Source: Candidatus Electronema sp.
Lineage (GTDB): Bacteria > Desulfobacterota > Desulfobulbia > Desulfobulbales > Desulfobulbaceae
DNA: 64,000 nucleotides
Direction: 5' to 3'
Assembly: GCA_026645415.1 (NCBI GenBank)
Contig: JAPEVH010000034.1
Span: 1-64,000 of the forward strand
The translations under genes were made by a program, and so were the position numbers. Positions within the stretch are counted from its first letter, which is position 1. Each line of letters opens with the position of its first letter. Positions 25,119 to 56,787 of this stretch are shown piece after piece. Below the pieces are notes generated by a model that made no database searches, had not been told where the DNA came from, and saw nothing but the letters and a program-made list of their open reading frames with translations.

Positions 25119-25699
25119 ATGGACTTTATCACTTCTATGATTGCATCTGCGCTGGGGAGTTTAGGCGTGGAGGCTGTGAAGTACAGCTACACCAAGCTGA
25201 AGGAACTGATATGCAGCAGGTACGGGGAAAAGAGCGCGCTGGCCGGGGCGGTGCAGCAATTGGAGCAGAACCCAGACTCCGAAGCACGCAAGGCAGTAGT
25301 TGCGGAGGAGCTGGCAAAGAGTGGAGCGCATCAAGATAAGGAGATACTGGAGGCTGCTGGGAGGCTGCAAGAGCTGCTCAAGGCAGTGCAACCGCAGGCG
25401 GCGTATCACGCTGTGCAGAGTGGTTCTGGGGCGATAGCGCAAGGGCCGGGTTCGGTTGCTGCTGGTGCGGGTGGCGTAGCGGTAGGTGGCAATGTTTACA
25501 CTAACAGTAGCAGCGGCGAGCAGAACTCGGAGTCACCTCAGCAGACCAAGGCGACCTTGCCAAGGCTGAGGAATATATTCGCCATGCCGTTCGGCTTGCA
25601 GAGACCGTCGGCCATCCTGAACTGGAGAAATACCGCGATGGCTTGAAACAGGTGCGGGCAGCACGGCGGGGGCCGTATGAATTGCGAGGACATGGATAG
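25119..25699 (+). pseudogene. Frameshifted GAIAQG-repeat/TPR protein remnant
   Basis: The first frame (25119 to the TGA at 25646) encodes a helical N-terminus (MDFITSMIASALGSLGVEAV, then KYSYTKLKELI). After it comes a Gly/Ala hexapeptide-like stretch, GSGAIAQGPGSVAAGAGG followed by VAVGGNV, at about residues 102-128. This module is seen in NB-ARC/TPR conflict-type proteins. Past about 25546 this frame loses sense. The frame two bases over reads QGDLAKAEEYIRHAVRLAE, then ends HPELEKYRDGLKQVRAARRG before the TAG at 25697-25699, a typical terminal TPR unit. The gene therefore looks like a TPR-effector protein that lost most of its TPR region and frame by deletion. There is no slippery heptamer at the junction. 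Alternatively it is intact up to 25646 with a random tail. Confidence 0.7.
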
Positions 25700-25709
25700 C
25701 CCTTCGCAG

Positions 25710-25842
25710 GAGACACCTAGGTAACTCCCAAAGAGACACCTAGGTAACTCCCAAAGAGACACCTTGGTGTCTCCATCCGAGTTACCCTAGTGACTCCACG
25801 AGAGTCACCTTGGTGTCTCCGTAAGAGTTACCTAGGTGTCTC
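25710..25842. repeat. Six palindromes at exact 23-bp period
   Basis: Imperfect 18-bp palindromes start at 25710, 25733, 25756, 25779, 25802 and 25825, each followed by a 5-bp linker (CCAAA, CCAAA, CATCC, CACGA, CGTAA). Unit 1 is GAGACACCTAGGTAACTC and unit 3 is the perfect GAGACACCTTGGTGTCTC. Half-sites are drawn from GAGACACC, GAGTTACC and GAGTCACC in different combinations. The array lies between the frameshifted gene and the nucleoside-transporter stub. Confidence 0.92.
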
Positions 25843-25886: not shown

Positions 25887-26069
25887 ACCATCACTTATGC
25901 CCTTTGCGACTTTGCCAATTTCGCTTTGCTTGGTATTATGGTCGGCGGCATTGGTACGGTAACGCCTGAACGACGTGGCGATGTTGTCAGTTTTGGGGTA
26001 AAGTCCATTCATGCCGGAACCATAGCCACTCTCATGCCCGGCCCAGTTGCTGGAATGATGACTGGCTGA
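25887..26069 (+). pseudogene. C-terminal stub of a CNT nucleoside transporter
   Basis: About 60 codons read ITYALCDFANFALLGIMVGG, then IGTVTPERRGDVV, GVKSIHAGTIATLM and VAGMM before a TGA. This matches the conserved C-terminus of concentrative nucleoside transporters (NupC/CNT: YALCGFANF, then IGGIGALAPERR). The rest of the roughly 400-residue protein is missing and the upstream codons are unrelated. It is a deletion remnant, not a gene. Confidence 0.82.
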
Positions 26070-26111: not shown

Positions 26112-27518
26112 ATGTCTCGTTTCTCCCGTAGTCTCTTCTTTCTTGCTTTTCTGCTCCTTTGTTCGCCAACGCTGCTTCTTGCCTCAGAAGGCGGCGGACA
26201 TGGACTGGCTATCTCACCTATTTGGATTTTTCCTTTTGCCATGCTGCTGGGCTGTATTGCCGTACTTCCCCTCGTGGCAAATCAGTGGTGGGAACACAAC
26301 CACAACCGCGCAAAGGTGAGTTGCTTATTTGCAATCATCTTTGCCAGCTACATGCTGCTCAATTTCGGTCATGCAGGCTGGGTTGCCTTGTACCATGCGA
26401 TTCTTTATGAATACCTGCCTTTTATCATTCTCCTTGGAGCCTTATTTACTATTTCTGGCGGGATTTATATAAAAGGTTCCTTGGCAGGAACGCCTCTCTC
26501 GAACACGATGTTCCTTGTTATTGGAGCGATTTCCGCAAGCCTGATTGGTACTACTGGTGCTTCAATGGTGCTGATTCGTCCTCTGCTGCGCGCCAACGAG
26601 AAACGAGAGAATAAAGTCCATCTTGTGGTCTTGTTTATCTTTGTCGTCTCAAACTGCGGCGGTCTACTTACACCTCTTGGTGATCCACCACTCTTTCTTG
26701 GCTTCCTGAAAGGGGTTCATTTTAGCTGGACACTGCGGCTCTGGAAGGAATGGCTTTTTGTCAACGGTTTCCTCATTATATTTGCTAATCTGCTTGATCA
26801 ATGGATATTTGATCGAGAGGAAAAACGCCGTCCAGGATCACAGCTCGAAGAGGTCATGCAACATCAACCACTGCGTATTCTTGGCTGGCAAAATCTCTTA
26901 TTTTTAGCTGGAATTGTGCTGGTGATTCTTGGCAAAGGACAGGCTTGGGGTGGCGAATGGCCTTTTGGTGTCCAAGAAGGCCTCATGGTTGGACTTACAC
27001 TGGCAGCTTATTTCAGCACAAAGGAAGAAATCCGTGCCGATAATAGATTTACCTTTGCACCAATCATTGAAGTAGCCATCCTTTTTGCTGGTATTTTCAT
27101 TACCATGATTGCCCCGCTGATGGTGCTGAATACACATGGCAAAGAGCTGGGCTTGAACGAGCCGTGGCATTTCTTCTGGGCAACAGGGCTGCTGTCCAGT
27201 TTTCTCGATAATGCTCCAACCTACCTGACCTTTGCGGCTACGGCCTGTGGGCATTTAGGTGTCAGTGTGGAAGGACAGAAATATTTGGCAGAATTCCTTG
27301 CTACAGGAGGTGCAGAAGCCGCCCGTTTGCTGGTAGCTATTTCCTGCGGTGCGGTCTTTATGGGGGCAAACTCCTATATTGGCAATGGCCCTAATTTTAT
27401 GGTTAAGGCAATTGCTGAGGAAAGCGGAGTTAGAATGCCGAGTTTCTTTGGCTACATGGGCTGGTCAGGTGCGATCCTGATTCCACTGTTTATTGTAGTG
27501 ACCTTTGTATTTTTTTAG
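26112..27518 (+). CDS. nhaD: NhaD-type sodium:proton antiporter
   Basis: A 468-residue membrane protein of the ion-transporter superfamily with about 12 helices and a probable N-terminal signal/first helix. Family segments are IGTTGASMVLIRPLLRANEK, NCGGLLTPLGDPPLFLGFLK and SSFLDNAPTYLTF. NhaD-type carriers exchange Na+ for H+ across the inner membrane, suiting a marine or brackish organism. It follows the scar region, and its own promoter is not obvious. A citrate or arsenite carrier of the same superfamily is less likely. Confidence 0.85.
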   Translation: MSRFSRSLFFLAFLLLCSPTLLLASEGGGHGLAISPIWIFPFAMLLGCIAVLPLVANQWWEHNHNRAKVSCLFAIIFASYMLLNFGHAGWVALYHAILYEYLPFIILLGALFTISGGIYIKGSLAGTPLSNTMFLVIGAISASLIGTTGASMVLIRPLLRANEKRENKVHLVVLFIFVVSNCGGLLTPLGDPPLFLGFLKGVHFSWTLRLWKEWLFVNGFLIIFANLLDQWIFDREEKRRPGSQLEEVMQHQPLRILGWQNLLFLAGIVLVILGKGQAWGGEWPFGVQEGLMVGLTLAAYFSTKEEIRADNRFTFAPIIEVAILFAGIFITMIAPLMVLNTHGKELGLNEPWHFFWATGLLSSFLDNAPTYLTFAATACGHLGVSVEGQKYLAEFLATGGAEAARLLVAISCGAVFMGANSYIGNGPNFMVKAIAEESGVRMPSFFGYMGWSGAILIPLFIVVTFVFF

Positions 27519-46955: not shown

Positions 46956-47962
46956 TTCCCTCCAGTTGTCTTTTTGCGATGTATGCTTTCCTTACAGCGA
47001 AGAACGATTTGCTCCATCAGGTATTCGATCACATTTTTATCTAGGCCCTTGCGTTCCACCATGCTTGCAAGTTCAGGCGGCAACTGATCCGTACGAAGCT
47101 GCAATTCTTCTCCGCTGCTGCTTTGTTTGAAGCGAGATATAGTCCAGCTCATTACCCTTTTAAAGGTTTCTTCGTCAACAGAAGAAGAGTCTTTTTTTTG
47201 AGTCTCTTGAGGATCTGCTTGTTTTGCTTCATCTACCACGGATTCTGCTGCTACTTCAGCTATGGCATCTTCCATAAAAAATAGCGGTGTCTCTTTTGGC
47301 TCAGGAATCTTATCTTGGACTTCTTCAGGAGTCGTTTCCTCCTCTACCGGGAAAAACGGATCATCCTCTTCTGTGTCTGACTCCAGCTCTGCTTCTGGTT
47401 CGGATGTTAGCTCATTCTCTGCTTTATCTTGTTCTATCGTCGTAGTCAGTAGCCCAATATTCTCACCTAGTTCTGCGGCGACAGGAAAAAGCTGCGCTGG
47501 TTCAAGAAGCAGTACGGGTTTATTCTCTGCGTTATCTTTTTCTATCGTAGTCAGCAGCCCGATATTCTCACCTAGTTTTGCGGCGACAGGAAGGAGCTGC
47601 GCTGGTTCAAGGAGCAATACTGGCTTTTCCTCCCATATCAGCATCTGTGGAAAGAGTTGAGCTGTCAAGACTGGACAAGAAGCTGGCAAGGAATTTGGCG
47701 GATTGATAATTTCTACGTCATCAGCGACAATTTGGTCAGCCACAACAAACACGCTCTCTTGTTCGCTCCGCAGCTCAAGGCAAATGGACTCGTCTGGAAC
47801 TGTGTGAGCAATCTGGCGGGACAGGAGCGCATCAAGTTGAAAAATCTTCTGTTCTTTTTTTACCTGCGCCGAAGTCTCAGACCAAGAGTAACGAGCAATA
47901 GTATTGCCACTGTCTATACCGAGCAGAAACGGGCCAGCTTGGACTATGCAAACTTTTTTCAT
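46952..47962 (-). CDS. CheW-like protein with internal duplication
   Basis: A 336-residue protein. The N-terminal 150 residues look CheW-like (VCIVQAGPFLLGIDSGNT). Then KPVLLLEPAQLLPVAAKLGE and its copy KPVLLLEPAQLFPVAAELGE lie 36 residues apart, each followed by NIGLLTT. A Glu-rich linker and a helical C-terminus (FKRVMSWTISRFKQ, NVIEYLMEQIVLRC) follow. The coiled acidic part recalls the protein at the left edge of the window. It is co-translated with the next CheW-like gene. Function as a coupling or scaffold protein is inferred. Confidence 0.68.
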   Translation of the reverse strand: MKKVCIVQAGPFLLGIDSGNTIARYSWSETSAQVKKEQKIFQLDALLSRQIAHTVPDESICLELRSEQESVFVVADQIVADDVEIINPPNSLPASCPVLTAQLFPQMLIWEEKPVLLLEPAQLLPVAAKLGENIGLLTTIEKDNAENKPVLLLEPAQLFPVAAELGENIGLLTTTIEQDKAENELTSEPEAELESDTEEDDPFFPVEEETTPEEVQDKIPEPKETPLFFMEDAIAEVAAESVVDEAKQADPQETQKKDSSSVDEETFKRVMSWTISRFKQSSSGEELQLRTDQLPPELASMVERKGLDKNVIEYLMEQIVLRCKESIHRKKTTGGK

Positions 47963-48805: not shown

Positions 48806-49258
48806 TTATATAATTTTGATATTTAAACGATTAAAAAAAATATTTTCAAACCGTTCTTAATAAGTAGGTCGACTTAAATGATCAACACTTCTGACAGGCA
48901 GGTCGACTTAAATGATCAACACTTCTGACAGGCAGGTCAATCTGAATGATTGACGCTTCCGATGTCAAAAAAAATGATGTAAAATCAAATCTATCCTCGC
49001 GTCAAAAATGTCTATTTTATTTATCAGGGTACTTAAAGTGTAGATTTCATGTTGATCACATATCATATTGTTAATTCTGCACCAAAATCGCCTTTGTAAT
49101 TTTCAAAAGAGCAAAGTTCAAGACATATAACTCTTTTCTCAAACCAGCAAAAGTTGCACTTACAACTTGAATTCACCTGACAAAACATGATGATTTGTTC
49201 ATCGCTTAAACTTTCAACAACATGTTCATGGAAAGCACAAAAAAACTCATAAGGCTGG
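48806..49258. other. Intergenic region with 34-bp repeats
   Basis: This 450-bp region lies between the CheA hybrid stop and the Rpn gene start. It holds the repeat array at 48866-48966 and otherwise AT-rich sequence with no coding potential or terminator that I can support. Confidence 0.5.
48866..48966. repeat. Three-unit array, 34-bp period
   Basis: AGGTCGACTTAAATGATCAA begins units at 48866 and 48900, identical over 34 bp. A diverged third unit starts at 48934. The third contains a clean palindrome GTCAATC-tgaat-GATTGAC (48936-48954). The first two have a degraded version of it. The period is about one helical turn longer than the 23-bp arrays. Confidence 0.88.
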
Positions 49259-55436: not shown

Positions 55437-56405
55437 TTAATATTTTAGCCCAACTCGGTCACGGGCCAAATCCAAAGTACTGCTGGCCTTGGCCCGCGCT
55501 TTGTCCGCGCCCTGCCGTAAGATTTGCCGAATATAGTCTTGGTTGGCTAATAGCTCTTTTTTCCGCGTCTTGGCAGCGGCAAAATAGTCACAAATCAGCG
55601 CAAACAGATCCTGTTTCAGATACCCATAGGCTGCGCCGCCTTTAAGATACAAACTCCGTACCTCAGCGAGTTTCTCTGGTGGAGCAAAAAGTTTGAGCAA
55701 CGCATAAAGGTTGCAGGTATCTGGGTTCTTTGCTTCTTCCACTGGCGTGCAATCAGTCTGCACAGCCATGACTCGCTTACGGAGTTCTTTGTCTTCCAAA
55801 AAAAGCGGAATCGTATTGCCATAGGACTTAGACATTTTTTGACCATCTAGGCCCGGAACAATGGCAGTGCTTTCGCTGATCGCTGCTTCTGGCAGGACAA
55901 AGGTCTCACCAAAGGTATGATTAAAGCTTATTGCGATATCGCGAGTCACCTCAACATGCTGTTTCTGATCTTTGCCCACGGGCACCACTTCAGCTTGGTA
56001 GAGCAGAATATCTGCGGCCATCAGCACTGGATAAGCAAAGAGGCCGTGACTTGCTGCCAAGCCTTTGGCAACTTTGTCTTTATACGAATGACAACGTTCC
56101 AGCAAACCCATTGGCGTAACCGTAGAGAGCAGCCATGCCAGTTCACAGACCTCTGGCACATCTGACTGGACCCAAAATAGGCACTTCTCTGGATCAAGAC
56201 CCAAGGCAAGAAAGTCTGTAGCTGCCTCCAAAGTACCTGTGGCCAGCCGGTCCCGGTCATGGACACTGGTCATGGCATGGAGATCAACAATAAAGGCGTA
56301 CAACTCAGAGTTTTCCATACGAGAAAGCATGGGTTGCATCATGCCGAAATAGTTGCCGATATGAAGCTGGCCTGATGGTTGGATGCCAGAAAGAGTGCGT
56401 TTCAT
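55437..56405 (-). CDS. trpS: Tryptophanyl-tRNA synthetase
   Basis: A 322-residue class I synthetase charging tRNA-Trp. The ATP-binding signature is SGQLHIGNYFG (HIGN at residues 15-18), and the KMSKS loop is DGQKMSKSYGN. The length is normal. No ribosome binding site is evident before the ATG. A 23-bp-period palindrome array starts 165 bp upstream. Confidence 0.96.
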   Translation of the reverse strand: MKRTLSGIQPSGQLHIGNYFGMMQPMLSRMENSELYAFIVDLHAMTSVHDRDRLATGTLEAATDFLALGLDPEKCLFWVQSDVPEVCELAWLLSTVTPMGLLERCHSYKDKVAKGLAASHGLFAYPVLMAADILLYQAEVVPVGKDQKQHVEVTRDIAISFNHTFGETFVLPEAAISESTAIVPGLDGQKMSKSYGNTIPLFLEDKELRKRVMAVQTDCTPVEEAKNPDTCNLYALLKLFAPPEKLAEVRSLYLKGGAAYGYLKQDLFALICDYFAAAKTRKKELLANQDYIRQILRQGADKARAKASSTLDLARDRVGLKY

Positions 56406-56787
56406 GGGAATACAGCGTGTAAAAAGGTTTTCAGAATAAATTGAGAATGGAACTATACCAAGAGACTATCATTGCTGCAAGCACCTGAAAAAAGAATCGA
56501 CTTTTGTTGAATACAGAGGAATTTTTACACAGCATGGTTACATTTTCCCCATCTTCTTTCTTTTTGCGTCGTGATAGGTATCACGACTGATTCGTCATAG
56601 GTATCACGGCAAATTCATGATACGTATCACGGCAAATTCGTCATACGTATCATGACTGATTCGCATCGAGTATCATCTTTCCTGCCTAATAATTATTCCG
56701 CCTCCATAAAAAAGTTCTTGACAAGGTAACAGGCCGAGAATTACTCTGCGGAAAATTGACACCTACCCTCTCGGCGCAGCATTCCCC
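56406..56787. other. Intergenic region upstream of trpS
   Basis: About 380 bp between two minus-strand genes, holding the palindrome array at 56571-56676. A plus-strand TTGACA at 56717-56722 has no gene to serve. No tRNA or T-box element is seen before trpS. Confidence 0.5.
56571..56676. repeat. Five palindromes at exact 23-bp period
   Basis: Fourteen-bp units start at 56571, 56594, 56617, 56640 and 56663: GTGATAGGTATCAC, GTCATAGGTATCAC, ATGATACGTATCAC, GTCATACGTATCAT and GCATCGAGTATCAT. The 9-bp linkers are GACTGATTC, GGCAAATTC, GGCAAATTC and GACTGATTC, an A-B-B-A order. The core GTGATACGTATCAC is a perfect dyad. Confidence 0.93.

Follow-up and report, generated by a model that had tools for sequence, protein, structure and literature searches.

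What do six short palindromes at a perfectly regular step represent in the genome of the cable bacterium Candidatus Electronema sp., and what could read them? The array lies at positions 25710-25842 of the window, the 64,000-nucleotide stretch of contig JAPEVH010000034.1 (assembly GCA_026645415.1) that was analysed here; it is one of many such arrays in this genome, and their association with an expanded family of HU-like proteins suggests, without binding data, that they are tandem protein-binding sites.

Palindrome arrays with a constant 23-bp step

The first-pass annotation described six 18-bp palindromes at an exact 23-bp step with shuffled half-sites, and this is confirmed. The units of array 1 start at 25710, 25733, 25756, 25779, 25802 and 25825 without any indel; each consists of 8+2+8 bp, with 6, 6, 8, 6, 7 and 6 of 8 arm pairs, respectively, and the linkers are 5 bp long. 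The half-sites are GAGACACC, GAGTTACC and GAGTCACC, plus one GAGTCACT in unit 4, in mixed left/right pairings. Unit 1 (25710-25727) reads GAGACACCTAGGTAACTC; unit 2 (25733-25750) is identical to it including the linker CCAAA, so that a whole 23-bp unit was duplicated, whereas later linkers are CATCC, CACGA and CGTAA. Unit 3 (25756-25773), GAGACACCTTGGTGTCTC, has perfect 8-bp arms, and is followed by unit 4 (25779-25796), GAGTTACCCTAGTGACTC, unit 5 (25802-25819), GAGTCACCTTGGTGTCTC, and unit 6 (25825-25842), GAGTTACCTAGGTGTCTC. A scan for three or more palindromes (at least 6 of 8 pairs) repeated at any one step found such chains in the window only at step 23 and its double, 46, at two places, 25710 (6 units) and 56569 (4 units), and none in shuffled sequence. 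The second array, which was not seen in the first-pass annotation, extends from 56569 to 56655 and has the same geometry but the unrelated sequence TCGTGATA-GG-TATCACGA; a degenerate fifth unit may follow.

In 2.39 Mb of the 2.7-Mb genome, strong chains of 18-bp palindromes (score of at least 18) number 20 at step 23 and 11 at step 46, but only 0-1 at each other step from 19 to 49; a Markov control has none at step 23. A lower threshold gives 29 separate arrays with 3-13 units, which form about 16 sequence families by our grouping and keep the same 18+5 geometry. Arrays of 13 and 10 nearly identical units, at 14690-14983 of contig L089 (contigs and genes of this genome carry the prefix L) and at L155:19588-19812, are probably recent expansions. 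The family of array 1, here termed the GAG family, recurs at 23-bp step in all five genomes of the genus and in one genome of another genus. Named database hits were Ca. Electronema aureum, Desulfobulbus sp. F5 and Desulfobulbaceae MAGs; two hits outside the Desulfobulbaceae (Acidimicrobiaceae, Campylobacterales) hold no array by our scan. An array at the same place in Ca. Electronema aureum and Desulfobulbus sp. F5 has 6 and 5 units, differing by exactly one 23-bp unit with no drift of spacing; register is kept while copy number changes. The inference of the first-pass annotation that sequence may vary while phase is held, and that the array is constrained rather than decaying, is thus supported far beyond this locus. 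In contrast, its suggestion of compensatory changes in paired half-sites is not supported, since mismatched arm pairs are mostly non-wobble and show no strand bias; the half-sites look like protein half-sites.

Genomic neighborhood of the arrays

Array 1 follows an ORF at 25119-25646 (+) with a weak HetE-N domain, whose 3' part is similar in DNA to the ends of TPR genes that precede other arrays; it looks like a decayed conflict-type gene. Several arrays (L074, L098, L099, L102, L159 and window 25119-25700) lie within about 60 bp of the 3' end of TPR or NB-ARC-like genes whose N-terminus carries a 'GSGEQN..QGDGAIGK' type motif, which may be an amyloid-like signalling motif. To the right of array 1, a sigma-70-like promoter, TTGCCA-16-TATTAT (25912-25939, +; 10 of 12, by consensus match only), starts 70 bp from the array and points to the next gene (26112-27518, +), an NhaD-like antiporter as read from its sequence. 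Array 2 is faced by the start of a gene read as trpS-like (55437-56405, -). Sister species have no array at the corresponding nhaD and trpS genes, but gene order is not conserved, and these loci do not provide a clean empty site. Most arrays of the genome lie between ordinary genes, by our reading nifD-nifK, metK-ahcY, both sides of recQ, murA-nadD, and after a dnaA-like gene (the 13-unit array on L089). Flanking DNA is not shared apart from coding paralogs. As a class, scattered arrays show no clear promoter enrichment (mean best score 8.1, against 7.7 in controls), so that an effect on neighboring genes remains conjectural.

An expanded family of predicted HU-Ig proteins

After response-regulator and ABC-ATPase proteins, the largest paralog family in the analysed sequence is a set of ~360-aa proteins, here termed HU-Ig (HU/IHF-type DNA-binding domain plus Ig-like domain), with fourteen full-length copies and one cut by a contig end. 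Matches to HU-DNA_bdg (PF14848) and DUF4469 (PF14734) are below the curated cut-offs (20.7 of 30 and 19.7 of 22.6 bits for one member); yet the structural model (pLDDT 85) shows the HU order of helices and strands followed by beta domains, the profile matches HU, Hbb and IHF chains over about residues 27-113, and a histone-like protein (6n2l) is matched with a TM of 0.75 by target length. The best PDB match, over the whole length (E 8e-12), is the Bacteroides putative DNA-binding protein BVU_2165 (4fmr), which supports the same architecture. Such proteins are known as domain families without known target DNA, including TDE_2259 of Treponema denticola, which is mentioned but untested (PMC12724145); in the cable bacterium, the family is expanded, its HU part is the most variable among paralogs, and its genes carry private arrays. 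HU-Ig genes occur in all 13 genomes of two genera, g1 (16-36 matches per genome, fragments included) and g14 (Electrothrix by inference), both with such arrays, and in none of 61 other genomes of the family Desulfobulbaceae. In a phylum sample of 395 genomes, only the own genome has real matches, with two marginal ones elsewhere; none were found in viral contigs, and no common neighbor was seen that would place HU-Ig genes in an operon. Many isolated fragments in genomes G000-G004 encode only the last ~35 residues of HU-Ig, besides other broken copies; the family seems to turn over quickly.

Linkage of arrays and HU-Ig genes

Of 14 readable HU-Ig promoters, 13 have a 23-bp-step repeat directly upstream, and the exception belongs to a broken gene; the sequence of the repeat differs from gene to gene. 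The 13 HU-Ig genes first read have TTGACA (TTGATA in one) at -85 to -94, and the arrays lie above this element. Without reference to palindromes, self-identity at lag 23 in the upstream 250 bp is the top of 34 lags in 10 of these 13 genes and second or fourth in two more, the broken gene being the exception; among 1586 other genes, 3.9% have lag 23 on top. A 14th gene, the most diverged paralog (26% identity to the first), was read only after the hypothesis was formed; its upstream region also has lag 23 on top (0.51), with half-sites ACGAATGCC/TCAAATGCA like those of a scattered array on another contig (L094:15944).

Profiles of scattered arrays pick out single HU-Ig upstream regions in the same genome, scoring far above control: CTTGGTGT arrays match that of HU-Ig gene L159 and CTGGAGTT arrays match that of L024, as strongly or nearly as strongly as an own array, and weaker but above-control links go to L108, L156, L019 and L102. 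In the sister species G003 and G004, the TCGTGATA family of array 2 lies 148 bp before HU-Ig genes G003:C3:27195 and G004:C46:619, and CTTGGTGT lies 148 bp before G004:C233:262; in genus g14, GACTTACC units lie about 217 bp before G088:C1:850091 and G091:C1:37717. In the present genome, TCGTGATA has no adjacent HU-Ig gene, although two HU-Ig upstream regions could not be read.

The reader of array 1 is unassigned. The GAG family scores above control in the upstream regions of L102 (34) and L160 (25), but below the 63-76 of true own arrays; half-sites of L157 (GACTTACCT, GAGTAACGT) are close by eye; the L102 and L157 arrays are related but not identical to array 1. No HU-Ig gene was found beside a GAG array in any genome searched, with the two unread upstream regions of this genome as a limitation.

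Interpretation of the arrays as HU-Ig binding sites

It is likely that array 1 is one of many arrays of tandem protein-binding palindromes, in a system where each HU-Ig paralog has diversified to bind, as a homodimer, its own 18-bp palindrome, with dimers lined up at 23-bp steps. Palindromic units with half-sites that vary on their own are what a homodimer needs; the fixed step suggests side-by-side, perhaps cooperative, binding; and the position just upstream of the -35 box suggests an upstream control element rather than an operator covering the promoter, so that each protein most likely controls its own expression. Scattered arrays of the same families, including arrays 1 and 2, could act as further control sites or as bending and compaction platforms, and gain or lose whole 23-bp units. 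As a caveat, binding, homodimers, self-regulation and effects on neighboring genes are inferred, and known HU/IHF proteins appear to read DNA mostly through shape and would not usually be expected to bind palindromic words.

HU/IHF proteins are treated as a few general architectural factors per cell; here, about 15 copies apparently each have their own palindromic word, which would provide natural protein-target pairs for asking how an HU fold reads sequence and how specificity changes after duplication, and a first handle on gene control and chromosome organization in cable bacteria, which are studied in sediment enrichments rather than pure culture (PMC13064052). Cable-bacterium genome papers mention insertion sequences and repeats but not these arrays, as far as a literature search that did not cover most journals can show. 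More tentatively, and possible rather than probable, dozens of HU-Ig paralogs could form a many-channel DNA addressing system that places specific bends or compacted nodes at chosen chromosomal sites; sequence-specific bacterial chromatin proteins would then diversify by coupled change of protein and array.

Tandem sites upstream of the promoter of the presumed binding protein recall autoregulated transcription factors with tandem operators, from which the arrays would differ in the HU fold, 3-13 units at a fixed step, the paralog-by-paralog change of the word, and many scattered arrays. Plasmid iterons and centromere arrays such as parS seem comparable as tandem protein sites about two helical turns apart next to the gene of the binding protein; here, the units are palindromic, belong to many families in one genome, and are scattered among chromosomal genes, with housekeeping genes by our reading as neighbors rather than a replication origin and rep gene. 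The arrays are not CRISPRs, since the linkers are 5 bp, the palindromes vary, and no cas gene was seen beside arrays.

ALTERNATIVES

Among other explanations, dispersal as REP/BIME-like selfish or neutral repeats, spread by an unseen transposase or recombinase with HU-Ig promoters as frequent landing sites, survives best but is unlikely. It would explain the scatter between ordinary genes, even inside operons, and the lineage-specific numbers (the CTGGAGTT family has 24 units in this genome and 0-1 in each sister); arrays also sit sometimes at contig ends, for example in G000 contigs C7, C9 and C69, where short-read assemblies probably break and undercount them. However, no shared mobile-element flank and no transposase family beside arrays were found, although the genome was not searched as a whole for a RAYT transposase; REP/BIME repeats would likely show one or few palindromic consensus sequences, whereas many unrelated sequences keep one strict geometry here, and landing sites would not give each HU-Ig gene a different family at a near-constant place above its promoter.

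It is similarly doubtful that another DNA-binding protein family reads the arrays, with HU-Ig genes merely as its targets; HU-Ig binding has not been demonstrated and the GAG family has no neighboring HU-Ig gene in any genome searched, but about 16 array families need a similarly large reader family, and a private array at nearly every paralog is most simply self-recognition. A function as RNA or single-stranded DNA hairpins (processing sites, transcript stabilisers, cruciforms) is very unlikely: array 1 as RNA folds far better than shuffles (z -10.6) and complementarity within units is slightly above shuffled pairings (0.760 against 0.735), but a good fold follows from any palindrome array and the scan selects for complementarity, only 9 of 160 units are perfect, 178 of 307 mismatched arm pairs are non-wobble, G-T and C-A mismatches are equal (65, 64) with no strand bias, and HU-Ig arrays lie upstream of the promoter and are not in that transcript.

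No Rfam match was found in the window. Its other repeats include two perfect tandem copies of a 34-bp unit, AGGTCGACTTAAATGATCAACACTTCTGACAGGC, at 48866-48938, and longer tandem repeats of about 180 bp and 105 bp at 130-1027 and 47414-47620.
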